Assembly (NCBI GenBank): GCA_028285755.1
Contig: JANQOQ010000004.1
Span: 62,001-126,000 of the forward strand
Direction: 5' to 3'
DNA: 64,000 bases
Source of the DNA: Puniceicoccaceae bacterium
GTDB lineage: Bacteria > Verrucomicrobiota > Verrucomicrobiia > Opitutales > JAFGAQ01
Both the position numbers and the translations under genes were made by a program. Of the stretch, positions 2,422 through 36,090 are shown piece after piece (the first letter of the stretch is position 1; each line of letters begins with the position of its first letter). The notes under the pieces are model-generated. The model saw only the letters and a list, made by a program, of their open reading frames with translations, was not told the DNA's origin and ran no database searches.

Positions 2422-4218
2422 TTAATCAGAAAACAGGGTCTGTTTTTTCATCTCAGGTACCAGCACCAAACCTTTGTCGGTCAACCGTATTTCGGGGATT
2501 ACCGAAAGGGGTAACAAATTGAAGCCCATGTAGGGCAATGTGCATCCCGCTTCATTCCAGGCTTTCTTCATGGCTGTGACCTCTACTGCAACCTCTCCTG
2601 CACGCTTATCCGACATTAGGCCGGCAATGGGTAATGGCACGGCCGCTTTCACCTCCCCATTGGCAACGACGACTACCCCACCCTGGTGCTTACGAATGGT
2701 TTCAATGGCCAGCTGCATATCGGCTTCGTTGAGACCGGCAACTACCACATTATGCGCGTCGTGGCCTACGCTGCTGGCGACAGCACCTTCCTTCAGCTTA
2801 AAATTCTGCAAAAACCCATAGCCGATTTCGCCATTCTTCCCGTAACGCTCAATAACCGTAAGATAACAACAGTCATTTGCTTCAAGAAAAGCATCCCAGT
2901 TCTCACTTCCTGCCTTGAAATGTGCGGTCGTGTGCAACGTAACGATGCCTGGTAGTTCGGTGCGCAACAGATGCACGGTGCAGTCATTGGCCGGAAGATC
3001 AGGAGTCAATTTCAGCGATTCGGGCATCGTGACCGTTTCGTAAGCCGGTTTTGGATAGACATAACGCTCGTTTGCTAACTGATTTTCAAGTAATGAGGTA
3101 ATCTTCTTATCTTCAACGACCAGCTCCCCACCATACCAGGTATTCTGGACTTCGAGTTCATCATTGAGCAGGACGATATCCGCGCGTCTACCGGAACCAA
3201 GCCCGCCGAATTCTCCATCCTGATGATAACGCGTAGCCCCATGCAAGCTCCCCATGCTCCAGGCAGTTGCCGGTGCAATACCTGCCGCCTGTGCCTGGCG
3301 GGTCACCCAATCCAGCCCGAACATAAAAAGGTCGTCTGCGTCCCGGTCATCCGTGCAAACACAAACCCGTTTCGGTGAGTCTCCATATTGAGTAACCGCC
3401 CGAATTGCTAAAGGCAGACTGTGCCAGGGGGTAGTCGGTGGCCCACCCCGCAGAAATACCCACATGCCGGCTTCAAGGAAATCGTTCGCTATATCCGGGT
3501 CAATGGCTTCATGGGTATCGGTTACCCCACTCGCAGCATAAGCAGCTACAAATTCACGTCCATAGATATGCCCACATATGACCTTGTCTCGCTTGAGTGA
3601 TTCCGCGATGAGGCCGTGGCTGCGCTCATCACCCATACAAACCGGCACGAAATCCATCTTTTCACCCAGGGCCAGAATTTCAGGCCATTTTTCAAAGAGT
3701 GCTGCTGCTTTTTCAGGCGTCAGGTCGCCTCCGCAGGTCTCGAGTCCGGGATGGGTTGCTGGAATCGCACTGGGCAAGGTAAGGAAAATATTTAGGGGAG
3801 CCATACGCGCATCTTCGAGCATCCACTCGATGCCATCCGTATCGCACACGTTCCCAATCTCGTGACTATCGCAAAAAATCGTAGTTGTGCCATTGAGAAG
3901 CGCAGCCTCCGCGTAGGCACAGGCGGACATCATGCTGCTCTCGATGTGGATGTGGGGATCCACCAAGCCCGGTGCTACAATCCCTCTATTCGCGTTGTAT
4001 TTTTTCCCTGAACTCCCTGTGAAGCTACCTGCAGGCTGAATCGCTGCAATGCGCCCTCCGGACACCCATACTTCCTTATCCAGCAGGATTTTCTCGGTAT
4101 AGGTATTGAGCACGCGGGAATCCGTAATGACAAGATCAGGCTCGGTAGTGCCATTCGCGACGGCGGCCAGCTGCCGCGTGAGTTCCCAAAGGGGTTTAAC
4201 GCTAAATCGGGTGATCAT
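2422..4218 (-). CDS. ade: Adenine deaminase
   Basis: This 598-residue protein has the usual length of microbial adenine deaminase, a metal-dependent amidohydrolase that converts adenine to hypoxanthine and ammonia in the cytoplasm. The HxH metal site is at about residues 89-91 ([12 protein letters not shown]), followed by the family segment DSHEIGNV. The C-terminal half carries the family block SVGHDAHN. It begins 5 bases after the stop of the adenosine deaminase-like gene, and with the AzgA-type permease it forms a three-gene leftward operon. It would act on adenine brought in by the permease, feeding hypoxanthine to the phosphoribosyltransferase at 9422 and releasing ammonia. The family assignment is firm. 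Confidence 0.95.
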
Positions 4219-4223
4219 AGGTA

Positions 4224-5783
4224 TTAGATTTTCAGTTTCAGGTAGTTCTTTCCGTAGCCATAGGTTTCGGCATTTACTTCAGCGAGACGACTCTGCCAGG
4301 ATACATTTTTAAAGCTCTCTTCAAACACTTCCATATCCGCCTCATACGATGCAGTGAGTGCCTCTTTTTCCAGATGGTTAAGGAAAGAGAATTGGATACT
4401 GTTGTGTGCCATTCGGGTCATTTCTGTCCAGGAAAGGTTAAACAGTGAAACACCTAGCATATACTCATCAGTCATATTGGATGACCACATACCACGATCA
4501 TCGGTATTAAAGCATACCGGTATACCCTGCCGCAGATAAATGGGAAACGGATGTTTTTTCGGATCCGGTACGTACTTGAGCAGATGGTTGGAAATCAGAT
4601 TGATCTCGATCAAGTGTTGTGCCGCGCGCATATGCTGCATGGTTTTGAAGTCCTGAATCAAATTACATCCGTGACCAATACGGCTCGCACCTAGTCTTAG
4701 AGTGTCAAAGATATAACTATCCGGTGCTTCACTCTCCCCTGCGTGAATGGAAATACCGATATCCGGGTAAATCCGCAACATTTCATCGTAGACTTCAGTA
4801 AATCTTGCCGGATAACCCATGGCATCGTCCTCACGGCCGGCCATATTAATACCCCGCCAGAGCTCACGATTTGCGTCGAGAAACGCATATTGTTTGCGCA
4901 CATTGTCCAAAGCATCGGGTGCGAACCGCAAAACCACCGTTTGAAAACGTATCATTACGCCGGTTGCAAGCGCATCAGGCTGGTTAAGGCGATTCAGTAT
5001 AAAAGCATCGTATTCTTCAGGAGTCATCGTGGTACCATCAGGTCGACGTTTGCCCCAGGGACCGCTCATTATCTCAATGTATCGAATGCCCTCGGCACCG
5101 TACATTTCCATGTTTTCAACCATCAGGTTGCCGATCACTGTAGCATCCGAAAGGAGAGAACCCAGACGTGGCCAGTGATACTCAAAAAATTCATCCCGGC
5201 CCTCACTGATACTGTCAAGAACCACTGAAGACTTCCAGGATTTCTTTTCAGTTTCACTTAAGGATTCCAGAGGTTTAAAATCTCCCTGAAGGTCGCTGCT
5301 CAGCTCATTGTAAAGTTGCTCATGGACAGTCATCCAACGAATCGTGTTTGGCCCGGACCACTGTTGCAGAGATTCTGGTAGAGTGTAATTCGTCACCTTA
5401 AAGCGGGTATAAAAGGTCTGTCCGCCATTCCTGGATTTATCAGTTGCAATGCGATACCACATATCCGGCAGCATCGAGCCCCCCATATGGTGGTGGAGAT
5501 CACCGCCCTTAGGCATCGCATAGAGAAAGCGATAGAGGTCCTCAGGTGTGCCCTCCTTTTTGATTGTCTCGTATATATTCGCGATCCCACTAGTGCGTTT
5601 CGTTGCAGCTTTGAAGAATGCCTTTTTATTCGCGGAAACGGGCTTACCCGCTTTATCGAGTGGCTGGGATACCTGAGCTTCTGCGGTGCTTTTACCCAGG
5701 ATTGCACCTGCGAGTGCGGAAAACGCTCCGGTCTTTAAGAAAGAGCGACGGTTAAATCGGGAATGCGAGGATTCGTTATGCAT
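4224..5783 (-). CDS. Tat-exported adenosine deaminase-like enzyme
   Basis: The protein is 519 residues, longer than cytosolic adenosine deaminase (about 330-350). It opens with a twin-arginine signal (NRRSFLK at about residues 11-17, then an AGAILG hydrophobic stretch), so it is probably folded in the cytoplasm and exported to the periplasm. Adenosine/AMP deaminase family motifs are present in order: [11 protein letters not shown] at about 93-103 (metal HxH), a HAGES segment, GASRIGHG and FNTDDRGM. The layout resembles the secreted ADGF/CECR1-type deaminases. Expected reaction is adenosine (or a related nucleoside) to inosine plus ammonia. It lies 12 bases downstream of the permease gene and 5 bases before ade. 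Periplasmic location fits the exported nucleosidases in this cluster. Exact substrate is inferred. Confidence 0.88.
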
Positions 5784-5795
5784 GGCAGGATTCGA

Positions 5796-7112
5796 TTATC
5801 GGGTTGCGTAGTAAAGGATGAATAAAAGGGCCACGACATAGGTGAGTATTGGCACTTGTTTATATTTCCCTCCACATAGCGTGATGAAGAGCCAAATAAC
5901 CAAACCGAGGCCTATCCCTTCGGTAATACTAAACGTAAGCGGGATCATGAGCATCGTGATAACAGAGCCGGTCATCTCTGCCATATTGTCAAAATCCAGA
6001 TCGCGCAGACCCTGTGCCATAAACACACCCACCATGACAAGTGCAGGCGTAGTCGCAACTGCGGGCACAGCCCCAATGATCGGTGCAAAAAACAATGCGA
6101 GCAGGAAACACGCGCCAACGGTCACTGCAGTCAGCCCCGTACGGCCGCCGGACTCAATACCCGCTGCTGACTCCACATAAGAGGTGGTCGTCGAAGTTCC
6201 CAGGAATGCACCCGTCGATGTCGCAATTGCATCGGCAGTGAGCGCTTTGCCCATCTTGGGCATTTTGCCTTTTGCGTTCATCATATTGGTGCGGCGCCCC
6301 AGGCCGATTAAAGTCCCTAGCGAGTCAAAAAGATCGAGCATTAGCAGTGTGATGAGCACCGAGAGGGTCTCCATCGAGAAATGGGTAAATGGATAGAAGA
6401 GATCGAGCTTAGCAAACGTCGGCTCCATTGACGGCGGTGCCGAAACAAAACCGGTAAACTGCGTAATCATTCCCCCCTCACCATTTGGCACTACCAGGCC
6501 GATCAGGGTGACGCCGATAATCGCCAATAAAATAGCCCCAGGTATTCTCCAGAATGTGAGCACCGAAATCGCGATAATACCCACCAAAACGAGAATCGAT
6601 GTGGGTGAGGTGATGTCACCCACAGTCACCAGAGTAGCTTCGTCATTCATAACGATTCCCACGTTCTTCAGGCCAATGAACGCGATGAAAAAGCCAATAC
6701 CTGTCTGAATACCTATCTTGATCCCATTGGGTAGCGCTTCGGCAATTTTACTCCGCAAGCCCGTCACGGAGAGTATGAGAAAGAGAATACCGTTCCAGAA
6801 AGTCAGAGAGAGTGCAGCCTGCCAGGAAAGCCCCATGCCCAGCACGATCACAAAGGCAAAATACGCATTGGTCCCCATACCGGGAGCCAGTGCAATTGGG
6901 TAGTTGGTCAACGCTGCAATCAGAAAGCAGCCAATTGCTGCAGCAACTGCGGTTACGGTGATCAGGGAGTCCTTGGGAAGACCGGCAACTTCCAGGATAT
7001 TGGGATTAACCGCCAGGATGTAAGCCATCGCAGCAAAGGTTGTTAGCCCCGCGATGAGCTCCTTGCTGATTGTGGTATTATTTTCGCTTAATTTAAACAA
7101 CTTTTCGATCAT
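5796..7112 (-). CDS. AzgA/PbuG-type purine base permease (NCS2 superfamily)
   Basis: This is a 438-residue multi-spanning membrane protein of the AzgA-like group, which imports hypoxanthine, guanine and adenine with protons. Diagnostic segments are ELIAGLTTFAAMAYILAVNP near the start, GMGTNAYFAF, and GTSTTTSYVESAAGIESGGR in the middle. I chose the ATG at 7112 (MIEKLFKL); an in-frame TTG at 7121 adds three residues. It is the first gene of the operon with the Tat deaminase and adenine deaminase. A good sigma-54-like site lies at 7140-7155, and the divergent neighbour is an exported NUP-family protein. Its role would be to bring the bases released outside the membrane into the cytoplasm. Confidence 0.92.
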   Translation of the reverse strand: MIEKLFKLSENNTTISKELIAGLTTFAAMAYILAVNPNILEVAGLPKDSLITVTAVAAAIGCFLIAALTNYPIALAPGMGTNAYFAFVIVLGMGLSWQAALSLTFWNGILFLILSVTGLRSKIAEALPNGIKIGIQTGIGFFIAFIGLKNVGIVMNDEATLVTVGDITSPTSILVLVGIIAISVLTFWRIPGAILLAIIGVTLIGLVVPNGEGGMITQFTGFVSAPPSMEPTFAKLDLFYPFTHFSMETLSVLITLLMLDLFDSLGTLIGLGRRTNMMNAKGKMPKMGKALTADAIATSTGAFLGTSTTTSYVESAAGIESGGRTGLTAVTVGACFLLALFFAPIIGAVPAVATTPALVMVGVFMAQGLRDLDFDNMAEMTGSVITMLMIPLTFSITEGIGLGLVIWLFITLCGGKYKQVPILTYVVALLFILYYATR

Positions 7113-7139
7113 AGCAGTCAATAGATTGAGGGCAACTTG

Positions 7140-7165: not shown

Positions 7166-7181
7166 TGGCACGAATTGTGTT
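7166..7181 (+). promoter_or_regulatory. Weak sigma-54-like site ahead of the NUP gene
   Basis: The plus strand reads TGGCACGAATTGTGTT. The -24 half is perfect, but the -12 half has GTGT where TTGC is expected, so the normally essential GC is GT. The spacing would put the transcript start at about 7192, one base before the ATG at 7193, like the other sites in this window. It may be a weak promoter, or it may only provide the second arm of an operator. Confidence 0.25.
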
Positions 7182-7192
7182 CTAATGGAATC

Positions 7193-8236
7193 ATGAAATC
7201 GACTACACTCACACTTTTTATACTCTGTATTCTATCCCCCCTATTTATGACCCAAGCAGCGATCCCCATAAAAGTTGCCGTATTGGCCATGTATGAAATT
7301 GATGAACCCACGGGCGATGTTCCCGGTGAGCTGCAATTCTGGGTAGAGCGGCTGCCCGGCCTACAGGAGGTGGAATTCCCTATGGGCCGAAAACCTATCT
7401 ATTACAACGATGAGGGTGTCTTGGTAACCCTTACCGGCGGTGGTCTTACTCATGCTGCGACTACCGTAACTGCACTGGGATTAGATGAGCGCTTTGATTT
7501 TACAAAAACCTACTGGATCATCGCAGGCATTGCAGGCGCTGACCCTGAGGATGCATCCCTCGGGACCGGTGCATGGGCGACCTGGGTGGTGGACGGTGAT
7601 CTCATGAAAGAGATCGACGGGCGCGAAATCCCCGAAAATTGGCCCTATGGAATGATTCCGCTCGGTGCGAAAGAGCCCAACCAGTTCGACGATGGGTGGT
7701 CGGTGGACAATATCGTTTTCAAGCTCAACGAATCGCTGGTCGAGTGGGCGTATCAACTTACTAAGAACTTTCCGGTGTCCGATGCCCCAGAACTGGCAGA
7801 ATTTCGCGAGCAATTCACCGGATTCCCCAACGCACAAAAGCCACCCATGGTGATCAAGGGGGACTCTCTTGCCTCCAGTACCTATTGGCATGGTGGGCTT
7901 ATGAACCAATGGGCGAATGACTGGGTGAAGCACTACAGCAATGGCGAAGGCAACTTTGTAATGACCAATATGGAGGACACGGGCACACTCACAGCACTGC
8001 GCAGGCTATCAAGAGTGGGCAAGGTGGATATGGAGCGCGTACTCGTGCTCCGCACTGCCAGTAATTTCTCCCGCCAGCCCGAGGGTGCCTCCGTTGCCTG
8101 GAGTACTACCGCACCCTACCCGCTGGGCGGACGGCCCGCACTTGAAGCTGCCTATCAGCTCGGTCGCCGGGTCGTGGATACGTTGCTTGCCGGTTGGGAA
8201 GAATACGAGGTGATTCTACCCAGTTATGAGGATTGA
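7193..8236 (+). CDS. Exported NUP-family protein (purine nucleoside permease/nucleosidase)
   Basis: This 347-residue protein belongs to the family named after fungal purine nucleoside permease (NUP), whose fold is that of nucleoside phosphorylases. It has a clear Sec signal (MKSTTLTLFILCILSPLFM, cut near AQAA) and no further membrane segments, so it is most likely a soluble periplasmic enzyme rather than a permease. Family segments include VAVLAMYEI, GGGLTHAATT, IAGIAGADP and TNMEDTGTL. I start it at the ATG at 7193; an in-frame TTG at 7175 would spoil the signal peptide. It is divergent from the purine base permease. Expected role is splitting purine nucleosides outside the inner membrane, which is inference from fold and location. 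Its stop overlaps the convergent YhhQ-type gene by 13 bases. Confidence 0.85.
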   Translation: MKSTTLTLFILCILSPLFMTQAAIPIKVAVLAMYEIDEPTGDVPGELQFWVERLPGLQEVEFPMGRKPIYYNDEGVLVTLTGGGLTHAATTVTALGLDERFDFTKTYWIIAGIAGADPEDASLGTGAWATWVVDGDLMKEIDGREIPENWPYGMIPLGAKEPNQFDDGWSVDNIVFKLNESLVEWAYQLTKNFPVSDAPELAEFREQFTGFPNAQKPPMVIKGDSLASSTYWHGGLMNQWANDWVKHYSNGEGNFVMTNMEDTGTLTALRRLSRVGKVDMERVLVLRTASNFSRQPEGASVAWSTTAPYPLGGRPALEAAYQLGRRVVDTLLAGWEEYEVILPSYED

Positions 8237-9421: not shown

Positions 9422-9976
9422 ATGCATCCCGTACCGGACAATTTTAAGCTCATACACGATATCGATTCCATCCAGAAACATATTGGACATTTGGTGGAGG
9501 ACATTACACCCTGGGCCCGCGAGGTGCTCGATACTACGGGCAAACCGGTGCTGGCACTTTGCGTATTGCGCGGAGGTGTGCTCTTCTTTTCAGATTTGCT
9601 GAAGGCGATGCCCATTTCCATTGAGCCCTGCTTCTGTCGCTGCCGTAGCTATTCCTCCGAGGAAAATGCCACACAACTCGACACGATCTCCACGCATTAT
9701 CTGGAGACTGACTTCAAAGACCGCGATGTGCTCATCATTGACGATATCTGCGACTCAGGTAAATCCCTGCGCCACCTCACCGAGGATATCATGACCCACC
9801 AGGGCGCAAAGTCTGTAAAGACCGTTACCTTTATCTTTCGGGATCGGCCGGATTCTGTCTATAAACCCGACTGGCACGCACTCACTTATGGGGGAGATGA
9901 GTGGTTTGTTGGTTACGGTATGGAGGATAAAAACCTCTACATGAACCACCCCCACATCCACATCATTGAGAAATAG
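9422..9976 (+). CDS. hpt: Hypoxanthine-type phosphoribosyltransferase
   Basis: This 184-residue cytoplasmic enzyme transfers the phosphoribosyl group of PRPP to hypoxanthine or guanine. The PRPP-binding motif is VLIIDDICDSGKSL at about residues 103-116, and the pyrophosphate-binding segment LCVLRGGVLFF is at about 42-52. The length is typical for HPRT. It is followed after 15 bases by the exported nucleosidase gene, with which it probably forms an operon. Together they make a simple salvage route: nucleoside split outside, base imported, nucleotide formed inside. There is no clear Shine-Dalgarno sequence; the promoter signals sit almost on top of the start codon. A sister base specificity such as xanthine cannot be excluded. 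Confidence 0.88.
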   Translation: MHPVPDNFKLIHDIDSIQKHIGHLVEDITPWAREVLDTTGKPVLALCVLRGGVLFFSDLLKAMPISIEPCFCRCRSYSSEENATQLDTISTHYLETDFKDRDVLIIDDICDSGKSLRHLTEDIMTHQGAKSVKTVTFIFRDRPDSVYKPDWHALTYGGDEWFVGYGMEDKNLYMNHPHIHIIEK

Positions 9977-9991
9977 AATTTATAAAGAGCT

Positions 9992-10990
9992 ATGAAACAC
10001 ACCTACGTATTACTTACCTTATGGATCGCCAGTGCTGTTGCGCTGGTTGCAAGCCCCTGGGGGCCACGCACTTTTGATGTCGATAACGAATGGACGGCCA
10101 TTGTCGCTGCCTACGCGCCTGAGATTCGGGCCATCGACGAAGCGATGGAAAAACACCCGGATGCAGAGATTACCGAGGAGATTTTCATCAAGGGTGTACG
10201 CTACCAGCTTGGCACTTACAAGGGTGAGCCGGTCGTTATCTTTACAACCGGCGTGAGCGTGCCAAACGCAGCCATGACCATGCAGATGGCTCTCGACTAC
10301 TTCCCGATCGAACGCGTAATCATGATGGGTATTGCCGGTAGCATTAACCCGGTTTTTAAGCCCGGTGATATTGCTGTGCCAGAACGTTGGTATTTTCACG
10401 ACGAGTCTGTCTACATCAACCCGGACCCCGATAACCCCGGTGAGTGGATTAAACCGGATTACTTTGTAGCGACCCGTGAACGATTCAAGGCACGCGAGAA
10501 AGTGGATCCTCACGCGCCGCGCTATGAAAACTTCGGCTTCATTTTCCCCGATGAAATGGCGATCGTAAAAGAAGGTTGGGACACCCCCCAACAAATGCCC
10601 TATTTCACAGCTACTCCTAAGCTTATCGAGCTTACTAAAAAGGCTCTGGATAGCATCGATCCCATCAAGATGCCTTCGGGTAATCCGATCACCATCGAAG
10701 TAGGCGGCAACGGAGTTACCGGTTCCGTATTTCTCGACAACGCAGAATATCGCAACTGGCTTCAACGAGTTTACAAAGCTCAAGTGACTGAGATGGAATC
10801 GGCCGCTGTTGGGCAGGTATGCTTCGTGAATGAGGTGGACTGGGTGATCATTCGCTCTGTGAGCGACCTCGCGGGCGGTCAGCACGGGAAGAACTCGGAA
10901 AACGTATTCGATGCGATCGCATCCGGGACAGGCACTAAGCTGATGCTCGGCTTGCTGGATCAGGTGGTCGAATATTACTACGGCGAATAA
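9992..10990 (+). CDS. Exported nucleosidase/phosphorylase of the PNP/MTAN superfamily
   Basis: This 332-residue protein has a Sec signal (MKHTYVLLTLWIASAVALVA) and a PNP_UDP_1 domain. Diagnostic segments are VIMMGIAGSINPVFKPGDI (about residues 109-127), EMESAAVGQVC with the ribose-contacting MES, and RSVSDLAGG with the base-binding aspartate. Cytoplasmic members such as 5'-methylthioadenosine/S-adenosylhomocysteine nucleosidase are about 230 residues, so this one has about 80 extra residues, including the signal and an insert rich in Pro and Asp after position 140. It probably hydrolyses or phosphorolyses nucleosides in the periplasm. The start is backed by AAAGAGC a few bases upstream. Its stop overlaps the convergent SIS gene by 13 bases. 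Exact substrate unknown. Confidence 0.87.
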   Translation: MKHTYVLLTLWIASAVALVASPWGPRTFDVDNEWTAIVAAYAPEIRAIDEAMEKHPDAEITEEIFIKGVRYQLGTYKGEPVVIFTTGVSVPNAAMTMQMALDYFPIERVIMMGIAGSINPVFKPGDIAVPERWYFHDESVYINPDPDNPGEWIKPDYFVATRERFKAREKVDPHAPRYENFGFIFPDEMAIVKEGWDTPQQMPYFTATPKLIELTKKALDSIDPIKMPSGNPITIEVGGNGVTGSVFLDNAEYRNWLQRVYKAQVTEMESAAVGQVCFVNEVDWVIIRSVSDLAGGQHGKNSENVFDAIASGTGTKLMLGLLDQVVEYYYGE

Positions 10991-12041: not shown

Positions 12042-13640
12042 TTATTGCGACATGGATTGCTCAAGGAAAATCCAGTTCACCACATCTAACTGGTGGTGAT
12101 CAATGGCCTGAGCATATTCCTTTTTGGTGACGAGGCTGTTCGGCGAGTTCATAACCATTTGGATCTTATTGCTCGGCAGGTGTGCACGCAGTACCGAAAA
12201 CAGACTTTCATAGTCCCGGTTATCAAACTCAATTCCCAGTTTGTTATAAGACTCACGGCTGCTGTAACTGTGTTTTTGCTGAAGCATCATCTGGTCGATT
12301 GCCATTGCTCCGAATCCCGCTCCGCGACCATCCTGATATACGAGCATGATCGCACCACAGCCATATTGCACGATGTTTTGAAGCGCTGCACGATACTTGG
12401 CTTTGTTATCGTCTGATTTAACCGGGAAACGATTTAAAATGGATTCACTCTGCACGCGAACGACCGGCACGTCGAAAAACTCAGGCTTACCGTAAACCAA
12501 AACCACCACGTCGTGACCGCTCACAATATCATAATATACATGCACCCGAAACCAGTATGGCAGATATTGGAGTTTACCCAAGGGATTCTCCGGTTGGCCT
12601 TTCAATAGCTCAGCCAATGCACCCTGATTCACCTTGAGCATCATGCGATGCTTGCGCAATGAAGTTAATTGCTCGATCACATTACCCTCGCCGATCTCAT
12701 CCTCGTTGATCTCATTATTCGGGAAGTATTGATTCGAGTCCTGCACACTCATCACCACTTGCCCATCCACAGGTCGGATCGGCAGGAAATAACTGGCCAT
12801 GTATATATATCGCTGGGCACTTTCCAGCACACGTGGCTTAAAGGGGATGACCGGTTCTGGTGTCTGAACACTCTGCAGACCACTGATCTGCGGGCGATCC
12901 AGGAAGTGGCCCGACTCCGCCTTCGACTGCAGATAGGCCAGATTGAAGGGACCTGGATCAAATTCGAGCTTCTCGGTGCGAATCACCTCCAGGCCGTTGT
13001 TTCTCATAGCATCCACCTTATCCGGATTGTTCGTCAGGAGAATCCAACCCGCGTTGATATCAAGAATCTTGACGATTTCCATCACATTCCGGTATTGGCG
13101 ATAGTCCTTCTTGAGACCAAGCATCTTGTAAGCCTGAAAAGTAGAAATGGTATCCTGGCTGGCTTGCACGAGCATTCGGTCACGCGCTTTCGCAGCGTAC
13201 CCGACCCCTCGGCCTTCCTGCAAAAGATAAAAGAGTACGCCCTGCCCTTCTTCTGATATCTTCTTCATAGCGCCTTCGAGCTGCTGCACACAATCACAGT
13301 CACAACCCCTGAGCGTCTCACTGGTTACACAACTGGAGTGCATGCGGGTATGGAGCTCCCGCGCCCGTTTGTAATCACCAAAAGTCATCGCAAGGATGTA
13401 ACCCTTGTGTATGATATCCTGAAAAATGAATGCCTTGAAGCTTCCAAAGCGTGTCGGCACCTCGGTTTCAGCTAGAAAGACGGTCGTGCCAAAAGTCGCG
13501 CGGGAATCAACATCATTGGCATCATGCCTCATCGCCTCTTCGCTGTATTCCTGCAGCTTATCGTAAACTACATTGAGCACTTCGGGCTCTTCATGGCCCT
13601 GTGCTTGGTCTTTGTTTTGAATGTCCGTTTTAATTTCCAT
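12042..13640 (-). CDS. Tandem GTP cyclohydrolase II-like protein
   Basis: This 532-residue protein holds two RibA-like units. The first (about 60-235) keeps most features of GTP cyclohydrolase II: RMHSSC with Cys104, a CDCDC cluster (113-117) for zinc, EGRGVG at 142-147 and LLTNNPDKV. By alignment to E. coli RibA, however, the catalytic tyrosine (KIRAYALQD) is replaced by Arg155 in KARDRMLVQ. The second unit (about 390-525) keeps YQDGRGAGFG but has lost all zinc cysteines, so it is probably structural. True RibA has about 200 residues. It lacks the DHBP synthase of RibBA. It overlaps RidA by 11 bases. A ring-opening role on a nucleotide or nucleobase is likely; the fungal uracil-catabolism protein Urc1 is a known relative, so riboflavin synthesis should not be assumed. 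Confidence 0.8.
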   Translation of the reverse strand: MEIKTDIQNKDQAQGHEEPEVLNVVYDKLQEYSEEAMRHDANDVDSRATFGTTVFLAETEVPTRFGSFKAFIFQDIIHKGYILAMTFGDYKRARELHTRMHSSCVTSETLRGCDCDCVQQLEGAMKKISEEGQGVLFYLLQEGRGVGYAAKARDRMLVQASQDTISTFQAYKMLGLKKDYRQYRNVMEIVKILDINAGWILLTNNPDKVDAMRNNGLEVIRTEKLEFDPGPFNLAYLQSKAESGHFLDRPQISGLQSVQTPEPVIPFKPRVLESAQRYIYMASYFLPIRPVDGQVVMSVQDSNQYFPNNEINEDEIGEGNVIEQLTSLRKHRMMLKVNQGALAELLKGQPENPLGKLQYLPYWFRVHVYYDIVSGHDVVVLVYGKPEFFDVPVVRVQSESILNRFPVKSDDNKAKYRAALQNIVQYGCGAIMLVYQDGRGAGFGAMAIDQMMLQQKHSYSSRESYNKLGIEFDNRDYESLFSVLRAHLPSNKIQMVMNSPNSLVTKKEYAQAIDHHQLDVVNWIFLEQSMSQ

Positions 13641-14097
13641 CGAGTTCTACCGTTACCTGAATTTCTACGGTCGCATTGACCGGGAGGCCGGCCACGGCAA
13701 TCGCCGCACGAGCATGTTTCCCCTTTTCGCCGAATACCTTGGCAAAGATCGCACTTGCCCCATTGATCACCTTCGGCGGTGAATCAAAGCCGGATACCGC
13801 ATTCACATAGCCTCCCATATAAACGATCTGCTTGACGCGCTCGAGGCTTCCAGCAGCAAGTTTAATCACCGAAAGCACATTCAGCGCGCAAATCTCAGCA
13901 GCTTTGTAACCACTTTCAATGGTCTGCTCCGCTCCGACCTGTCCCTGGTGAGTCATCTTGCCATTGAAAGTTGAGATGACGCCTGCCAGGTAGAGCATAT
14001 TGCCGACCTGTTTATACGGCAGATAATCACCTCCGGGAGCGGGTGGCTCTGGGAGTTCCAGCCCAAGCTCTTTAAGTTTGCTTTCGTAAATATCCAT
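13630..14097 (-). CDS. ridA: RidA/YjgF-family enamine/imine deaminase-like protein
   Basis: The protein is 155 residues, slightly longer than the classical 125-130-residue RidA because of an N-terminal helix, as in the YjgF-like subfamily often annotated TdcF/YjgH-like. Typical segments are GNMLYLAGVIS (about 32-42), EQTIESGYKAAEICALNVLS and VNATVEIQVTVE at the end. RidA proteins hydrolyse reactive enamine/imine intermediates; RutC of the pyrimidine pathway is a pathway-specific relative. It is the first gene of the RidA, cyclohydrolase-like and SIS operon, and overlaps the second by 11 bases. That suggests it clears an unstable aminoacrylate-like product made by its partner (inference). A sigma-54-like site lies just upstream. 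Confidence 0.88.
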   Translation of the reverse strand: MDIYESKLKELGLELPEPPAPGGDYLPYKQVGNMLYLAGVISTFNGKMTHQGQVGAEQTIESGYKAAEICALNVLSVIKLAAGSLERVKQIVYMGGYVNAVSGFDSPPKVINGASAIFAKVFGEKGKHARAAIAVAGLPVNATVEIQVTVELDGN

Positions 14098-14171: not shown

Positions 14172-15476
14172 ATGATGGCTGAGCGCAAACTACTATACCG
14201 ATCTCTGAAATCGTGGAGAGATGTAGCTGTAAACGATAAAAACCGGTGGGAGAAGGACATCCGCGCATTGCAGAGCATCATTCTAAAGGATAAACTTTAC
14301 GCCAAAGCGATTGTTTCGCTGACAGAGCCAAAATCAATCGAGAACTCCACGGATTCATCACTCTTAGGAGTCCCCTATTTATTAAAGGATTTATTTGACG
14401 TAGCAGGAATACCCACAACTGCCTCTTCAACCTTTCTAAGGGATGAGCGCGGCATTCCCTCGGACGACTCTGCGGTCTATCAATGGTTATCAAAGGCAGC
14501 TGCTGCATATATCGGTAAAACCCACCTCAATGAGTTTGCTTATGGTCTGGACGGCGTGAATCCCCACTTCGGAACGGTGCCCAACCCTAACGTTCCTGAT
14601 CGCCTTGCAGGAGGTTCCAGCAGTGGCTCGGCCTATGCGGTAGCCAAAGGCTGGGTGCCTTTTGCAGTAGGGACCGATACGGGTGGCTCGATTCGCGTGC
14701 CGTCGGCATTTTGCGGCCTCTTTGGCTTTCGCCTGACAACTAATCATCCGCTGAGCACTGAAGGTTGTTTCCCTCTGGCACCGAGTTATGATACCGCAGG
14801 CTGGTTTACACGCACTGCTGGGGATATGCTCGTGCTAATATCTAATTTGGGTGACCCCAAAATTGAAAAAAGCCCCAAGGGCCTACACATAATCGAAGCT
14901 TACTTCGGCTTAAACCCAGAGATATATAACAGTGCTATTAGTTTTAGTTCGAAACTTGCCGACAAAGCAGACAAAAATCGAATCGGTGAATGGCAAAGTG
15001 TTACTCAGGGAGCTGTATCTGCGTTCAACGTTTTACAAAGCAGTGAAGCCTACGAGGTACATAAGGACTGGCTTCAAAAAAATAAAGCACACTACGATCC
15101 CGCTACGTGGGCTCGTATCATGAGAGCAGAAAGCTGGACTACTGAAGACCAAGAGCACGCTTATGCCAAACACCAAGAGCTCAATACCTTCTTTGACAAA
15201 TACTTCTCAGAACACGATTACCTAATCATCCCTGCAACACCTGCACCTGCCCCTTTGATTTCCGAAGGTATGCCGGATGGCTTTCGCAGCCGTTTACTCG
15301 CACTGACTGCACCTGCAAGTATAACGGGTTTACCGGTTCTATCCATTCCCATTCATTTAAGCTCAGGCTTTACTTCTGGTTTGCAAATACTGCTGCCAAG
15401 GGATATCGAGAAAGCAGTTTCTATTGCTAAATCCATCTTAACGCATAAAAGCGTTGCTGGAACTTCTTACATGTAA
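14172..15476 (+). CDS. Amidase signature family hydrolase
   Basis: A 434-residue amidase-signature enzyme that hydrolyses a C-N amide bond. The Ser-cisSer-Lys machinery is visible: the lysine in LLKDLFDVAG (about residues 72-81), the glycine/serine-rich GGSSSGSAYAVAKG at about 147-160, and the nucleophile serine in GTDTGGSIRVPS at about 167-178. No signal peptide, so it is cytoplasmic. The family includes GatA, allophanate hydrolase and many catabolic amidases; length and the absence of gatB/gatC argue against GatA. It overlaps the following exported DUF2141 gene by one base (TAATG). Substrate unknown; the nitrogen-scavenging neighbourhood makes a small amide plausible. A second ATG three bases downstream is an equally good start. 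Confidence 0.88.
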   Translation: MMAERKLLYRSLKSWRDVAVNDKNRWEKDIRALQSIILKDKLYAKAIVSLTEPKSIENSTDSSLLGVPYLLKDLFDVAGIPTTASSTFLRDERGIPSDDSAVYQWLSKAAAAYIGKTHLNEFAYGLDGVNPHFGTVPNPNVPDRLAGGSSSGSAYAVAKGWVPFAVGTDTGGSIRVPSAFCGLFGFRLTTNHPLSTEGCFPLAPSYDTAGWFTRTAGDMLVLISNLGDPKIEKSPKGLHIIEAYFGLNPEIYNSAISFSSKLADKADKNRIGEWQSVTQGAVSAFNVLQSSEAYEVHKDWLQKNKAHYDPATWARIMRAESWTTEDQEHAYAKHQELNTFFDKYFSEHDYLIIPATPAPAPLISEGMPDGFRSRLLALTAPASITGLPVLSIPIHLSSGFTSGLQILLPRDIEKAVSIAKSILTHKSVAGTSYM

Positions 15477-18588: not shown

Positions 18589-19518
18589 TTAATCAAAGAT
18601 AGCCAATGGCAGATAACCCGTAATCGTCGTCTCCGGTTGATTCACGAGTTGGCTGACTTTGAGGTCGAGCACGACACTGCATAAAACGTAGGCCTGCTCT
18701 GCACTCAACCCGAGCTTTTGTCCTAAATAGTCGATTGCACGGCGCACCACTTGCTGGCATGCCACCCGGGGATCGGGGTTGGACTCGATGAATGCCTGCC
18801 AGGGCTTCGTCAGGTAGCGCGGGGGCACTAAAGTAGGCGGAACCACGGCTGCCGGCGGCTTGAAACCCACATCCTTCAAAAGCTCGATCTCAAAGGTTAC
18901 CGTCATGGGCGCCTCCATACCGTTGATGGATACTTCCCCATCTCCCTGAGCGCCATGGCAATCCCCTGAGCAAAGACCCGCGCCAGGAATCAATACCGGC
19001 AGGTAGAGCTCTGCTCCCGCAATCAGGTGCTTCACATCCATGTTGCCCCCCCAAACTCCGGGAGGACGTGTGCGGAACTCTCCCTCCTCAGCACGTTGCA
19101 CGCCGATAATTCCGCAGAAGGGGTGTAAATCCAGGGTAACCCCGGGCATTGACTTCGTTTGCTTCTCCTCTAGCACCCAATGATGCAGGAAGTGCTCTTT
19201 AAAGTCTTCAGGTAATAACCCAAGCCCGGGTATAATACTCGTCCATGCCCACCCTTCATGCTGATACTCCAATATCTTGATTTTGAGCTGGTCGCCGGGC
19301 ACAGCCCCGGCAATGGCCACAGGTCCCGTCAAAGAATGGATACGCGTTTTATCAATCTGGCTGAACTCCCCGGCGCTCATCCCGGGTTTTACCTGACCAT
19401 CCGAGGCATCCTTCATTTTAAGGGTTATGCGCTCACCCGATTCAATGGTTATCTGAGGTTCGTAGGTATTATCCCAACGATTGTAAGTAAGCGTACGGTC
19501 GAGAAAGTGTTCTTTCAT
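18589..19518 (-). CDS. Acetamidase/formamidase (FmdA/AmdA family)
   Basis: The 309-residue enzyme belongs to the FmdA_AmdA family, which hydrolyses formamide or acetamide to ammonia and the acid. The family signature is SGDCHGAQGDGEV at about residues 190-202, with HPFCGIIGV and GGNMDVKHL upstream. It is the last gene of the leftward arm of the catabolic cluster, and its ATG overlaps the creatininase stop (TAATG). As a terminal enzyme it would release ammonia from a one- or two-carbon amide produced when a ring is opened; formate-yielding steps are typical of purine-like and imidazole-like ring opening (inference). Confidence 0.92.
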   Translation of the reverse strand: MKEHFLDRTLTYNRWDNTYEPQITIESGERITLKMKDASDGQVKPGMSAGEFSQIDKTRIHSLTGPVAIAGAVPGDQLKIKILEYQHEGWAWTSIIPGLGLLPEDFKEHFLHHWVLEEKQTKSMPGVTLDLHPFCGIIGVQRAEEGEFRTRPPGVWGGNMDVKHLIAGAELYLPVLIPGAGLCSGDCHGAQGDGEVSINGMEAPMTVTFEIELLKDVGFKPPAAVVPPTLVPPRYLTKPWQAFIESNPDPRVACQQVVRRAIDYLGQKLGLSAEQAYVLCSVVLDLKVSQLVNQPETTITGYLPLAIFD

Positions 19519-20303
19519 TACTTGGAAATCTGTTTGTAGAATTCAGCGATCGCAATTGCCAGGCTTTTCCCGCCGGTTTGCAACCATTTCTCCCCATCTT
19601 CGGCATTTCCCAGAGTTGCATTGCCTACAACCCCGGTCGTTGAAAGATCCGAGCACATCCACGAAAAAATCGCGGGCGCGTCCTCGGGCTCCAATTCACC
19701 CGGGTCATTGACCCAGTCCGGGTATTCATTGGGTGCAAGCTCCATTTCAACGAGATCCGGCGTGAGCGCGAGAAGCCAGGAAGTCTCCGCCTGATTTGCA
19801 TGGAAACCATATGCCGCTTCCAGGGGATCCAGCTTCATTTCACAATTCATGCGCAAAACACCAGTAAACATACCGAACGTCGCATGAATTTCACGTAAAG
19901 TGGACCTTACGACCTGAATATTACCCCCGTGGGTATTAATAACGAGAAGACTGCGAAATCCCCAATCGCTCAACTGCCGGCCGATCACCAAGAGCTGACG
20001 ATACATCACCTTTTTATCAATCATCAGTGAACCGGGGAAGCCCGTATGCTCATTACTTTTCCCGACGATAATCGAGGGACCCACCAGGCAGGGAATTTCA
20101 TCAGGCAGATGCGGCATAGCGGTTTCCAACCAGGCCTGAGCCATCATGGCATCGACCCCCACTGGCAATTGAGGCCCGTGCTGCTCGATAGCACCCGTAG
20201 TTATCACAATGGGAGTATGTTCCTTATTGGGCAGGGCCTGGATTTGCTCAAGCGTATAGGCCCCGATCCAGCGCTTACGATAGTTGGGATGTTCGATACT
20301 CAT
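19518..20303 (-). CDS. Creatininase-family amidohydrolase, metal site intact
   Basis: A 261-residue member of the creatininase family, which opens cyclic amides or removes formyl groups using two metals. Metal ligands are present: Glu40 and His42 in AIEQHG, Asp51, His125 in NTHGGN, and Glu173 in HANQAETS. Family members include creatinine amidohydrolase, the FAPy deformylase ArfB and a dehydro-inosose hydrolase, so the substrate is not fixed by homology. It overlaps the upstream creatininase-like gene by 4 bases (ATGA) and the downstream formamidase by 1. It is likely the catalytic subunit of a pair with its divergent neighbour. Confidence 0.9.
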   Translation of the reverse strand: MSIEHPNYRKRWIGAYTLEQIQALPNKEHTPIVITTGAIEQHGPQLPVGVDAMMAQAWLETAMPHLPDEIPCLVGPSIIVGKSNEHTGFPGSLMIDKKVMYRQLLVIGRQLSDWGFRSLLVINTHGGNIQVVRSTLREIHATFGMFTGVLRMNCEMKLDPLEAAYGFHANQAETSWLLALTPDLVEMELAPNEYPDWVNDPGELEPEDAPAIFSWMCSDLSTTGVVGNATLGNAEDGEKWLQTGGKSLAIAIAEFYKQISK

Positions 20304-21037
20304 GGCCTTACCCCCTTTGGTTTAACCTCTATCGGAGCTTTGTTATAGATTTCCTGCGATAGCCGTATGAAATGATCGACCGCATCATCAAGCACTTCCT
20401 TCCCATCAAGGCCACTACCCCCAATGGGCTCTTTAACGTTCACATTCCAGTTCTGCAAAATCCCCGGGTGTTGAGTATTTGATTGGGATTCTGTGGATTG
20501 AGCTGGCGCTTCCCCAAATAGATGGCGTAGCACAGCATTGAGGCGGGCCCGATCCGCATCCGGATGGAAATTAAGTTGAAGCCCGCTCAGGTTCACACAA
20601 AACATTTGCAAATCCAGGGCAATTCTTAGGTCACGCCCTGTCGCATCAATGATATCTTCCATCCAGGGATTCGCATTAATAAAGACAATTTTCCTAAATC
20701 CCGAGGCTGCAATAGACTTACCCAAATCATGAAGGTAATCGTATGCCAGATCCAGGTTCACCGGAAAGGCCGTGCGCATATGCGGACCAGCAACCAATGA
20801 AGCAGGTGGCAGATATAACCAGGAAAGCTCGGTTGGTTTACGCTCCGAAGCCGCTTTCAACAACGACATGACCAGAACTTCTTCAGCATCCAGCGGGAAA
20901 CCCATACCCCAATCTGTCATACTGATTGTTGGCACATAAATCAGTGTTTTCTCTTTGTTTTCCCAGGAGTCGAACTGCGGCCATCGGTAATTAGGCCAAA
21001 ACGCATCCGGGTGTTGAATCGCTATGGAAGCTCTCAT
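20300..21037 (-). CDS. Creatininase homologue lacking metal ligands (probable pseudoenzyme)
   Basis: This 245-residue protein aligns along its length with the creatininase-like product of the next gene but has lost the active site. The EQHG motif is TDWG at residues 41-44, the metal aspartate region is altered, and NTHGGN is NANPWM at 121-126, so the metal histidine is Asn123. The hydrophobic core strands, for example GFRKIVFINAN, are kept. It is coupled by 4-base ATGA overlaps on both sides, to the amidohydrolase upstream and to the intact creatininase downstream, so equal production is likely. A regulatory or structural subunit of a mixed complex is a reasonable inference. Independent catalysis by another mechanism is possible. 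Confidence 0.72.
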   Translation of the reverse strand: MRASIAIQHPDAFWPNYRWPQFDSWENKEKTLIYVPTISMTDWGMGFPLDAEEVLVMSLLKAASERKPTELSWLYLPPASLVAGPHMRTAFPVNLDLAYDYLHDLGKSIAASGFRKIVFINANPWMEDIIDATGRDLRIALDLQMFCVNLSGLQLNFHPDADRARLNAVLRHLFGEAPAQSTESQSNTQHPGILQNWNVNVKEPIGGSGLDGKEVLDDAVDHFIRLSQEIYNKAPIEVKPKGVRP

Positions 21038-22254
21038 ATTTTAAATCGATCGTTTATAAAGATAGGCTTGCCCTCACGATAGGTGGCGAGTACTTCGCAG
21101 GGGGTCACCCGTGTGCAAATGCTGGCCAGCAGGTGACGGGTCGCTCTGAGGTGCGGAACAGTAAAGTCAAGCAATGTGAAATTAGCTGGTAAACCTTCTT
21201 CCAGGTAACCGGGGAAGCGATCGCCCAGCACCTTGCCAACATTGGATGTTGCCATTTTGAGAATCACTTCCGGCTCTGGATCGACGGCATTGCCATACTG
21301 ACTCTCTGTAATTTTGTAGGTATAATCCAGCTCAGCGAACATATTGGGTGAGTTGAGCATGCCGTTATCTGTACCCAGGAGCAAATTTACCCCTGCATCG
21401 ATGAGCTTCGCAATCGGTGGAATTGGTAAGCCCAAATTTGCATTCGCACGGGGATTCAGTACTGCGGTCACTTCATGATCCACCAGCATCTGAATCTCCT
21501 CATCATTAGCGACAGTCAGGTGAATAATGATGTGCGGATCGAGCAGATCGATTGCCCGCTCAAGATCTCCGCGGCCTGTGATTTCCAGGCTTACATCACG
21601 ATATCCATCGTTTTCCAGACAATGGATTGCCCGCATCTTTCCCATTTCCCGGGTTACTTTTTTGATTTTCAGCCAGGAGGCATCCGTGAGATCATTCATC
21701 GTGCTTTCACTGAACCCATCAGCAACTGCGAGCATTTCTTGTAACTCTGCAACAGCGTTCTCTGGAAGGGATTTCACATTTGCCCGCAATTCCTCATTGG
21801 TAAAGGGAGGATCCTTGAGCTGACCCAGGATAACGGAATCTACCCCACTCTGCCGGGAAGCCTCTCTCAAAATCTGAGAACCGATCACTCCCATTTCCCG
21901 AAAATCGATGTGAGCACTGGTTCCCGATTGAGCCATGTAGTCCAAGTGTGCTTTGACGTGAGGTAAAATGGATTCTCCCCGCTTAGAAAGTTCCCGGTAT
22001 TTATAACCGTTCGGCCTGAAAAAGCCCTCTTCCAGGGTCATACCCGTAGCCCCATCCGGCAGGCAACTGTCGCCCATGTGGGTATGCGAATTGCACATTG
22101 AAGGCATGACCACCACTGCACCTTCATCGATCTGTATCACCGGATCTTCCAGTTTTATTTCCTGGATCTTACTGTTCTCCCAAACGAACCGACTACAAAA
22201 GTGAGGTTTTAGCTCGCTACCATGCAGCACTATACAATCTTCAATCGTAGGCAT
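21034..22254 (-). CDS. ATZ/TRZ-type amidohydrolase (deaminase-like)
   Basis: The 406-residue protein is a metal-dependent amidohydrolase of the group that includes guanine, 8-oxoguanine and S-adenosylhomocysteine deaminases and s-triazine hydrolases. The HxH motif is NSHTHMGDS at about residues 56-64, later metal histidines are in AIHCLEND and IIHLTV, and the catalytic aspartate is in LLGTDNGML. It would deaminate or dechlorinate-type hydrolyse a nitrogen heterocycle in the cytoplasm. It sits between a DUF2165 membrane protein (14-base gap) and the creatininase pair (4-base overlap). It is the second ring-directed amidohydrolase in this operon, the other being cytosine-deaminase-like, which suggests two successive deamination steps. 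Confidence 0.85.
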   Translation of the reverse strand: MPTIEDCIVLHGSELKPHFCSRFVWENSKIQEIKLEDPVIQIDEGAVVVMPSMCNSHTHMGDSCLPDGATGMTLEEGFFRPNGYKYRELSKRGESILPHVKAHLDYMAQSGTSAHIDFREMGVIGSQILREASRQSGVDSVILGQLKDPPFTNEELRANVKSLPENAVAELQEMLAVADGFSESTMNDLTDASWLKIKKVTREMGKMRAIHCLENDGYRDVSLEITGRGDLERAIDLLDPHIIIHLTVANDEEIQMLVDHEVTAVLNPRANANLGLPIPPIAKLIDAGVNLLLGTDNGMLNSPNMFAELDYTYKITESQYGNAVDPEPEVILKMATSNVGKVLGDRFPGYLEEGLPANFTLLDFTVPHLRATRHLLASICTRVTPCEVLATYREGKPIFINDRFKI

Positions 22255-22833: not shown

Positions 22834-22853
22834 AGGGAGTGTTAACACTCCCT
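22834..22853. other. Perfect 20-base palindrome after the cytosine-deaminase-like gene
   Basis: AGGGAGTGTTAACACTCCCT is self-complementary over its full length. As RNA it gives an 8-pair, GC-rich stem with a UUAA loop. It overlaps the TAG stop of the upstream gene (22852-22854) and lies 33 bases ahead of the internal sigma-54-like site. No U-run follows on either strand, so it is not a standard terminator. It may be an mRNA 3'-end stabiliser, a weak terminator or an operator. Confidence 0.6.
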
Positions 22854-24144: not shown

Positions 24145-24147
24145 GCC

Positions 24148-25101: not shown

Positions 25102-25102
25102 A

Positions 25103-25921
25103 TTACTTTTTCAGCGTCGCTATAAAATACTCCTGCTCAGCCGCAGCTACCAAAGCCCGAAAAGACTCTACGCCTGAGAACTCCTTTTGTCTCACCCTTT
25201 TAAAAGGCACCTGGAATTCCAAAACATCCGCATCAAAGGGATAAGGGTCCAGACGGTAAGTGTTATTCCCTTCCGGATAGCAAGTCACTTCCTTTAATTC
25301 GCCCGATGTGGTTACCTGAGCGTGCCTGAGTTTAATTTCTGTCGGAAACTGAACACATACCGTCAGCGAAAGACTGTCGCAGCATTGCAGGAATTTAAAG
25401 TTTTGATCCAAAATGGCTTCTGAGGTGAATTCCCCAGAACCTTCCTTTTCTTTGGATACTTCGATAAGCTCTTTCTGGCGATTGAGCTGCCCGTCAATAA
25501 AGGCACTGTGCAGCTTGGTTTGTTCGGCGTCCAACGTGCTTAGATCGGCCTGCTCTGTAAGTAAGTTTACCGTGTGCATTGATATAAGCGTTGCAGAATA
25601 CGGCAGCGCGTCTGCAACAGCTTCAGTGGCGTTTCCGCGTACCTGCAAGTATTCTTCCAGGTCAATTTCCTCAAAGGCGTCGTAAGTGCCTACGAGCTCC
25701 TTTGAAAACGCACTGGGCAGACCCTCTCGGGTGATCTCCGGCTCTGCATCTCGGGGCACCCAAGCGTCATCGTGCTTGGCAACGCCTTCTCGTACGAGTG
25801 AGAAAGGCTCCGGTTTCACAAAAAGATCATTTCCCCAATGGTCTGCAAATGCGCCTGCGAGCTGCGCATGATCCTGGTGATTGAGCAATAACCAACCGTC
25901 TTCTGTTTCAATTCTTACCAT
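25103..25921 (-). CDS. DUF3891-family protein
   Basis: This 272-residue cytoplasmic protein has the family hallmark near its start: GWLLLNHQDHAQLAGAFADHWG (see about residues 9-30), then KHDDAW with a His-Asp pair, and SMHTVNLL in the middle. The HD-like histidines and aspartates suggest a metal-dependent, possibly hydrolytic, all-helical domain, but no biochemical function is known to me. It is the first gene of the leftward arm and ends one base before the binding-protein gene. The start codon follows the predicted sigma-54 transcript start by about one base, so translation is probably from a leaderless mRNA. Confidence 0.82.
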   Translation of the reverse strand: MVRIETEDGWLLLNHQDHAQLAGAFADHWGNDLFVKPEPFSLVREGVAKHDDAWVPRDAEPEITREGLPSAFSKELVGTYDAFEEIDLEEYLQVRGNATEAVADALPYSATLISMHTVNLLTEQADLSTLDAEQTKLHSAFIDGQLNRQKELIEVSKEKEGSGEFTSEAILDQNFKFLQCCDSLSLTVCVQFPTEIKLRHAQVTTSGELKEVTCYPEGNNTYRLDPYPFDADVLEFQVPFKRVRQKEFSGVESFRALVAAAEQEYFIATLKK

Positions 25922-25932
25922 GTATCAACATC

Positions 25933-25948
25933 AGCAACGGCAGTGCCA
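25933..25948 (-). promoter_or_regulatory. Candidate sigma-54 promoter of the leftward catabolic arm
   Basis: The minus strand reads TGGCACTGCCGTTGCT. Both boxes match consensus (TGGCAY and TTGCW), with one deviation at the seventh base, and GG-to-GC spacing is 12. The -12 C is at 25934, so the transcript should begin near 25922, next to the ATG at 25921. It faces away from a second strong site 48 bases to the right. Confidence 0.65.
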
Positions 25949-25996
25949 AATGGAAAATTGACGAATTTCTGCGCTTATTTTTTAGCTAAACTCAAC

Positions 25997-26012
25997 TGGC
26001 AAGAGGCTTGCT
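25997..26012 (+). promoter_or_regulatory. Candidate sigma-54 promoter of the rightward catabolic arm
   Basis: The plus strand reads TGGCAAGAGGCTTGCT. It differs from TGGCAYR-N4-TTGCW at one position, and spacing is exact. Predicted start is about 26023, one base before the ATG at 26024. With the site at 25933-25948 it forms a compact divergent sigma-54 control region. Confidence 0.65.
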
Positions 26013-26023
26013 TATGGGGGGCA

Positions 26024-27436: not shown

Positions 27437-27445
27437 AAACCGCTT

Positions 27446-30748: not shown

Positions 30749-30752
30749 GAAG

Positions 30753-35385: not shown

Positions 35386-36090
35386 CTATGCTTCCAAAAC
35401 CACAGAACGTTTTAGCTGGCCTATACTCTCAATGCTAACTACTACGTCATCGCCCTCCTGCAAATAGACGGGAGGTTTTTTAGAATGCCCTACTCCGCCC
35501 GGGGTTCCGGTCAAGATGACGGTCCCAGACAAAAGCGTGGTGCTGCCTGATAGAAACACAATGATCTCCGGGATACCGAATATCAAATCTGAAAGTCTGC
35601 CCTGCTGACGTAGCTCCCCGTTAACATGGGTCGTAAGGCTGAGCGATTTAGGATCCGGGATAGAATCGGCACTAACAAGCTCAGGACCCAGGGGAGTAAA
35701 CGTATCGAAACCCTTACCTTTGGTAAATTGTCCACCCCCAAGTTCAAACTGCCAGTCACGTGCAGTTACATCGATAGACGCCGTGTAGCCTGCAACGTAA
35801 CTCATGGCATTCTCCAGCGTAGCGTTCTTACAGGTTTGCCCGATAATAACTGCCAGTTCCCCCTCATAGTCCACCTTGGCACTGGAGAGACCCGTGGGTA
35901 TCTCAATAGGTTCGCCTGCAACTGTGGCGGAAACAGAGGGCTTAGAGAAGAGCAACGGTCGCTTAGGGATCTCCAGCCCAATGGACTCTGCATAACTGCG
36001 ATAGTTCAACCCTATCCCATAGATCGCAGGAATACGCAGATCACCCAGACTTTTGAGCGGCAGTTGAGATTCAAAGTAGTCCCGGCTCAT
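35386..36090 (-). CDS. Fumarylacetoacetate hydrolase-family protein
   Basis: This 234-residue protein has the FAH fold. The metal-binding segment is DYEGELAVIIG at about residues 71-81, followed by ASIDVTARDWQ, KGFDTFTPLGP and TGTPGGVG near the end, as in YcgM-type acylpyruvate hydrolases, 2-hydroxyhepta-diene-dioate isomerases and oxaloacetate decarboxylases. Its ATG overlaps the stop of the TPR gene by one base (TAATG), so it is the last gene of the TonB2-type operon, which is unusual for a metabolic enzyme. It might act on the carbon skeleton of an imported compound or be a housekeeping detoxifier; the substrate is unknown. Confidence 0.88.
   Translation of the reverse strand: MSRDYFESQLPLKSLGDLRIPAIYGIGLNYRSYAESIGLEIPKRPLLFSKPSVSATVAGEPIEIPTGLSSAKVDYEGELAVIIGQTCKNATLENAMSYVAGYTASIDVTARDWQFELGGGQFTKGKGFDTFTPLGPELVSADSIPDPKSLSLTTHVNGELRQQGRLSDLIFGIPEIIVFLSGSTTLLSGTVILTGTPGGVGHSKKPPVYLQEGDDVVVSIESIGQLKRSVVLEA

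Follow-up and report, generated by a model that had tools for sequence, protein, structure and literature searches.

A tandem RibA-like protein is encoded in the analysed 64,000-nucleotide stretch of Puniceicoccaceae DNA, here called the window. It belongs to a family that was found, among the relatives listed, only in Verrucomicrobiota and mostly in Opitutales. Across genomes this protein travels with an SIS family and a DUF3891 protein, both otherwise uncharacterised, and its gene lies in a purine-linked neighbourhood. The tandem protein probably belongs to purine catabolism. With a little more than even confidence, we predict that it is a zinc-dependent purine-nucleotide cyclohydrolase, most likely acting on GTP or ITP, and that it would catalyse the first committed step in breaking purines down without oxidation.

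A Pfam search of the 532-amino-acid protein revealed two GTP_cyclohydro2 (PF00925) stretches and no further domain. Together with the alignment to E. coli RibA, this bore out the two-unit architecture that an earlier note had read from the DNA. The gene is the middle member of a tightly packed minus-strand trio, with a RidA gene directly upstream and a double-SIS gene directly downstream, just the two partners named in that note (Table 1). An Rfam search of window positions 1-45000 found no riboswitch or other match, and promoter and terminator scans had a yield no higher than in shuffled sequence. The structure model of the tandem protein was mediocre (pLDDT 62), and its VIA comparison aligned mainly unit 1 (residues 51-235), giving little information on unit 2.

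Table 1. Position and character of the tandem gene and of associated genes in the window.
Feature	Coordinates	Strand	Remarks
Tandem RibA-like protein	12042..13640	-	unit 1 ~aa 52-249 (zinc cysteines, D179, R181, Arg155); unit 2 ~aa 325-528 (zinc-less)
RidA-family protein (YjgF_endoribonc)	13630..14097	-	overlaps tandem gene start by 11 bases
Double-SIS protein, 348 aa	10978..12024	-	17 bases downstream of tandem gene
NCS2 / AzgA-type purine permease	5796..7121	-	PF00860; in relatives usually directly upstream of tandem gene
Hypoxanthine-type phosphoribosyltransferase	9422..9976	+	TIGR01203 95 bits, below cut-off of 150; PDB matches HGPRT/HGXPRT
Nucleoside phosphorylase/nucleosidase family protein	9992..10990	+	PF01048
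NUP family purine nucleoside protein	7175..8236	+	PF06516
Adenosine deaminase-like protein	4224..5783	-	PF00962
Adenine deaminase	2422..4218	-	TIGR01178 361.7 bits, below cut-off of 472.5
Amidase (AtzE/PRK08310-like)	14172..15476	+	divergent from tandem gene
Amidohydrolase (TRZ/ATZ, PRK07213-like)	21034..22254	-	adjoins tandem/SIS genes in L025, L032, L039, L046, L084, L088
Creatininase-like protein 2	20300..21037	-	PF02633 39 bits
Creatininase-like protein 1	19518..20303	-	PF02633 188 bits; PDB creatininases match
Formamidase/acetamidase family protein	18589..19518	-	PF03069
DUF3891 protein	25103..25921	-	invariant H15, H18, H50-D51-D52, D58, H116, D126, D182
FAH-family hydrolase	35386..36090	-	PF01557
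SBF-like transporter	41416..42438	+	PF13593; near tandem gene in L025, L026, L029, L051, L070, L080

The active site of unit 1 was compared with that of E. coli RibA (2bz0). C104, C115 and C117 align with the zinc cysteines C54, C65 and C67 of GTP cyclohydrolase II, E142 and R144 with E92 and R94, and D179 and R181 with the catalytic D126 and R128. The residue aligned with the catalytic Tyr105 is Arg155. All of these zinc, EGR, Asp and Arg residues, and R155 itself, were invariant in 93 of 93 homologous sequences. Indeed, every tandem sequence carries Arg at the position of Tyr105 (93/93), as against Tyr in each of 12 canonical RibA domains, so that the altered tyrosine proposed earlier is a fixed feature of the family. 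Eight class-specific swaps are fixed relative to the 12 canonical domains (S62G, I96V, L98Y, A104D, Y105R, Q108V, G111S and N118Y), seven of which fall in E. coli positions 96-118, between the EGR motif and Asp126. The remaining invariant positions common to canonical RibA are kept (R49, H51, Q70, Y88, K101, T149 and K154 among others), and the phosphate-binding residues of unit 1 are invariant in the 93 sequences. Since Arg155 is fixed together with seven other swaps, it is, as judged from the alignment, a maintained change. By the same measure the swaps form the pattern of an enzyme that is conserved but has changed its specificity or product, rather than of decay. Unit 2 lacks the three zinc cysteines, as had also been claimed: S, A or T replaces C54 and the C.C motif is missing. 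At least about 95% of the sequences retain D437, R439, D473 and R475 in this unit. In a tree, the two units formed separate clades. A descent of unit 2 from the zinc-less RibB-RibA fusion of the order was considered and found no support: unit 2 stands as a separate clade, and its branch is long, so that long-branch effects call for caution.

The earlier note had also raised the question of an ordinary ribA elsewhere in the genome, whose lack, along with complementation of a ribA mutant by the tandem gene, would have refuted its reading. One was found: the genome of the window encodes a canonical RibA of 210 amino acids (L001, with C, C, C, Y, D and R at the diagnostic positions), as well as a RibB-RibA fusion (L002). 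This bears on the possibility that the tandem protein is just a divergent form of the GTP cyclohydrolase II with which these bacteria make riboflavin, an idea that we regard as very unlikely. For most carriers such a role would fill an apparent gap. The sole other PF00925 gene in most sampled Opitutales, carriers and non-carriers alike, is a RibB-RibA fusion whose RibA half lacks the zinc cysteines, and lumazine synthase was present in all 17 carrier genomes checked. However, the sampled non-carriers of the order get by on the zinc-less fusion alone, and because they have the same gap, the tandem gene is not what closes it in general. The canonical RibA of the window's own genome, the fixation of Arg155 across the family and the purine catabolic character of the recurrent neighbours likewise speak against a riboflavin enzyme. 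A double role that includes riboflavin synthesis is conceivable in some carriers. The zinc-less fusion pattern was seen throughout the order (L002, L122-L129, L131, L134, L142, L146, L159-L175). As a caution for annotation, a gene labelled GTP cyclohydrolase II may have no part in making vitamin B2.

Among 387 sampled genomes of the phylum, 17 encode the tandem protein (E <= 1e-60), as full-length homologues at 51-62% identity, far beyond chance. When 84,980 species genomes were scanned, 96 relatives came up, of which the 80 listed came from Verrucomicrobiota, near relatives or unnamed bins; this pattern search favours close relatives, and distant homologues may escape it. In total, 81 distinct tandem loci were collected, 42 of them with full flanks. 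These 42 were searched for 16 partners from the window within 9 kb, and 40 stretches of 20 kb, picked arbitrarily from carrier genomes, served as control. At least one partner was present in 39/42 tandem loci, compared to 3/40 control loci. The most frequent were SIS (28/42 versus 0/40) and RidA (21/42 versus 0/40), followed by AzgA (16/42 versus 0/40), amidase (16/42 versus 1/40), DUF3891 (13/42 versus 0/40), ADA, creatininase (each 8/42 versus 0/40), HPRT-like (8/42 versus 1/40), NUP and FAH (each 7/42 versus 0/40). The tandem loci are related by descent, and p-values therefore overstate their independence. The usual operon order was AzgA, tandem RibA, SIS, and in several relatives the phosphoribosyltransferase gene lies between or beside the tandem and SIS genes. 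The downstream hydrolases adjoin the tandem gene in a minority of loci only. The earlier note had taken the tandem protein for a ring-opening enzyme in catabolism. The context supports this well, and the neighbouring AzgA, AdeC, ADA, NUP and HPRT-like proteins, with negative controls, narrow the proposal to purines.

Two further groups of genes were noted in the window. A queuosine-precursor-type transporter (Vut_1, TIGR00697; 8224-8892) lies within the purine gene region and was not recurrent in relatives. Positions 22852-32534 hold a cytosine deaminase, two NMT1/ThiY-like binding proteins, an ABC transporter, an FAD-linked oxidase and a CocE-like hydrolase. This second cluster is possibly related to nitrogen heterocycles and is rarely found near the tandem gene elsewhere.

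The double-SIS protein had no match in Pfam or NCBIfam. Of 68 distinct loci with enough sequence, 45 have its gene immediately after the tandem gene on the same strand, and in about one third of the loci with enough flank it was not adjacent. When the 387 genomes of the phylum were searched with an SIS alignment, the family turned up in 16, and all 16 are among the 17 tandem carriers (hypergeometric p ~2e-27; by genus p ~5e-16). The SIS structure model was confident (pLDDT 93.8, pTM 0.93) and showed a double-SIS fold across the whole chain. VIA aligned 312 residues with the isomerase domain of GFAT-1 (Z 27.3, rmsd 2.9), with near-equal values for GlmS, NagB-II and related proteins, and Foldseek matched the model to FraB deglycase, BSU32610 and NagB-II. 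K231, E234 and H251 (in HGPFQ) were invariant in 31 SIS sequences. Judging by motif spacing, which is close, E234 and H251 may be equivalent to the catalytic Glu and His of GlmS/FraB. The SIS protein could be a deglycase that splits a C-N bond and returns pentose phosphate. Such an activity would suit the proposed route, because a purine nucleotide that is opened in the manner of RibA becomes a phosphoribosylamino-pyrimidine. An apparent fusion of the SIS and amidohydrolase genes in locus L084 was rejected, as the assembly has a run of N at the junction.

DUF3891 was found in 17 of the 387 genomes, among them 15 of the 17 tandem carriers (p ~5e-23), in several on other contigs. One tandem carrier (G080) lacks both the SIS protein and DUF3891. 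The invariant His and Asp residues (Table 1) suggest a metal site, and DUF3891 may be a metal-dependent hydrolase. A literature search on DUF3891 found no papers. Two genomes of the order (G360 and G363) have the protein but no tandem RibA, and it may therefore have a second context.

Taken as a whole, the cluster may encode an undescribed non-oxidative purine pathway, which we put forward tentatively as a counterpart of the URC pathway for uracil: a nucleotide would be made, its imidazole opened, the sugar phosphate recovered and the pyrimidine dismantled by hydrolases including DUF3891. The full mechanism is a similarly tentative reconstruction. Purine bases and nucleosides would be imported by AzgA and deaminated to hypoxanthine by AdeC and ADA, and the hypoxanthine-type phosphoribosyltransferase would form the nucleotide. 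Unit 1 would then open the imidazole ring by RibA-like chemistry with Arg181 and zinc, where Arg155 and its neighbours may alter base recognition or product, while unit 2, lacking zinc, may have a structural or regulatory part. Like FraB/FrlB deglycases, the dedicated SIS protein would then cut the C-N bond that joins the sugar phosphate to the aminopyrimidine, and thereby return pentose phosphate. The leftover pyrimidine would be dismantled by the amidohydrolase, creatininases, formamidase, amidase, FAH, RidA and DUF3891 proteins.

Known aerobic purine breakdown proceeds by oxidation through xanthine, urate and allantoin. In none of the 17 carriers did xanthine dehydrogenase score over the cut-off or uricase give a match, and the positive controls were matched in both searches. 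Xanthine dehydrogenase is rare in the order anyway, with only 15 of 132 genomes having it, and its absence from carriers is therefore weak evidence, consistent with the proposed route rather than decisive. Among the papers searched for a RibA-type purine route, none described one. If the proposal holds, RibA-type opening of the imidazole of a nucleotide would be a new logic of purine breakdown, and would bear on purine nitrogen recycling by Verrucomicrobiota in lakes, seas, soils and guts. It would also give functions to DUF3891 and the unnamed SIS family, which both track the tandem RibA across genomes.

The product of the tandem enzyme might differ from that of RibA. Reportedly, a Streptomyces paralogue with Met at the Tyr105 site gives a formylamino product; as Arg differs from Met, the same product cannot be assumed for the tandem protein. 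We consider it unlikely that the enzyme stops at the formylamino-pyrimidine and leaves removal of the formyl group to a partner from the creatininase or formamidase family. The key Tyr is altered, and the creatininase-like proteins of the cluster belong to a family that includes the archaeal deformylase ArfB. However, the change is to Arg rather than Met, the weak NCBIfam match to ArfB (E 5e-4, 19.9 bits) is far under the cut-off of 180, and creatininases occur near only 8 of the 42 loci.

RibA paralogues also serve natural-product and cofactor pathways, such as ToxB-type enzymes for toxoflavin, and a plasmid RibA (L152) indeed sits with toxoflavin-type partners. That the tandem protein similarly makes a purine-derived natural product or cofactor is quite unlikely, since a neighbourhood with a permease, deaminases, a phosphoribosyltransferase and many enzymes that hydrolyse amides indicates that purines are taken up and degraded, and the biosynthesis-type partners of L152 (WD40, VOC, MFS) do not recur at tandem loci. 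Separately, RibA-like genes on plasmids of Rhizobium and Eleftheria (L118:4986-5585, L154:3836-4483) lie near DUF4231 genes and have Met or Leu where RibA has Tyr105. They form one clade and are possibly another repurposed RibA system.

Among known enzymes, Urc1 of uracil breakdown is a relative from the same superfamily. No bacterial Urc1 sequence was found in the plasmids searched, and the RibA-like enzyme named UTP cyclohydrolase in the PDB (7eev/7ej3), which is presumably the Urc1 enzyme, served for comparison. The tandem model matched it (VIA Z 11.7, rmsd 6.5, 209 aligned), and a cytosine deaminase is present in the window; nonetheless, it is highly improbable that the tandem protein acts on pyrimidines in URC-type uracil breakdown, as Urc1 / UTP cyclohydrolase would. 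The profile match of the tandem protein to UTP cyclohydrolase was weak (E 6e-4, compared to 5e-37 for RibA), the conserved neighbours are purine genes, and cytosine deaminase lies near one locus only. In an ungapped reading from the EGR motif, UTP cyclohydrolase keeps the zinc cysteines and DxR and has Tyr at the position of Arg155. Urc1 / UTP cyclohydrolase is associated with a GTP_CH_N domain (PF12471) ahead of the catalytic domain; Pfam did not find this domain in the tandem protein, and it was absent from all 288 genomes of the phylum searched. The Urc1 analogy drawn in the earlier note does not explain the Arg, given the Tyr of the solved enzyme and the undetected N-terminal domain. Urc4 (DUF1688) had no match in the 17 carriers, and control genomes were likewise without a match. 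UTP cyclohydrolase differs from the tandem protein in its Tyr, its C-terminal catalytic unit, its pyrimidine substrate and its marginal sequence similarity.

The predicted purine-nucleotide cyclohydrolase is closest to RibA (2bz0, 4rl4; TIGR00505). By structure alignment, unit 1 is 32% identical to it over the domain, and it retains the zinc cysteines, EGR, the equivalents of D126/R128 and the phosphate-binding residues. In contrast to RibA, the tandem protein has two fused units with a zinc-less unit 2, Arg for Tyr105 plus seven fixed swaps, purine-catabolic neighbours and another RibA in its genome, and with 154.5 bits it does not reach the TIGR00505 equivalog cut-off of 205.85. A zinc-less RibA-like domain is shared with RibBX (6mnz), but RibBX is a fusion of RibB to this domain, whereas unit 2 forms a clade apart from the zinc-less RibB-RibA proteins of the order. 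The SIS protein resembles FraB, BSU32610/FrlB-type proteins, NagB-II and GlmS in its full-length double-SIS fold (Z up to 27), its HGP motif and the invariant Glu and His 17 residues apart. It differs from them in its sequence (~10% identity), in belonging to no Pfam or NCBIfam family and in its tie to the tandem RibA across genomes. The URC pathway of Lachancea kluyveri converts uracil to ribosylurea and 3-hydroxypropionate with Urc1 and Urc6, by way of uncharacterised steps; Urc4 releases urea, and the pathway includes a base-to-nucleotide phosphoribosyltransferase and a sugar release (PMC7530994). The proposed purine route would mirror this layout, with a base-to-nucleotide phosphoribosyltransferase, a cyclohydrolase of the RibA superfamily and a release of the sugar.
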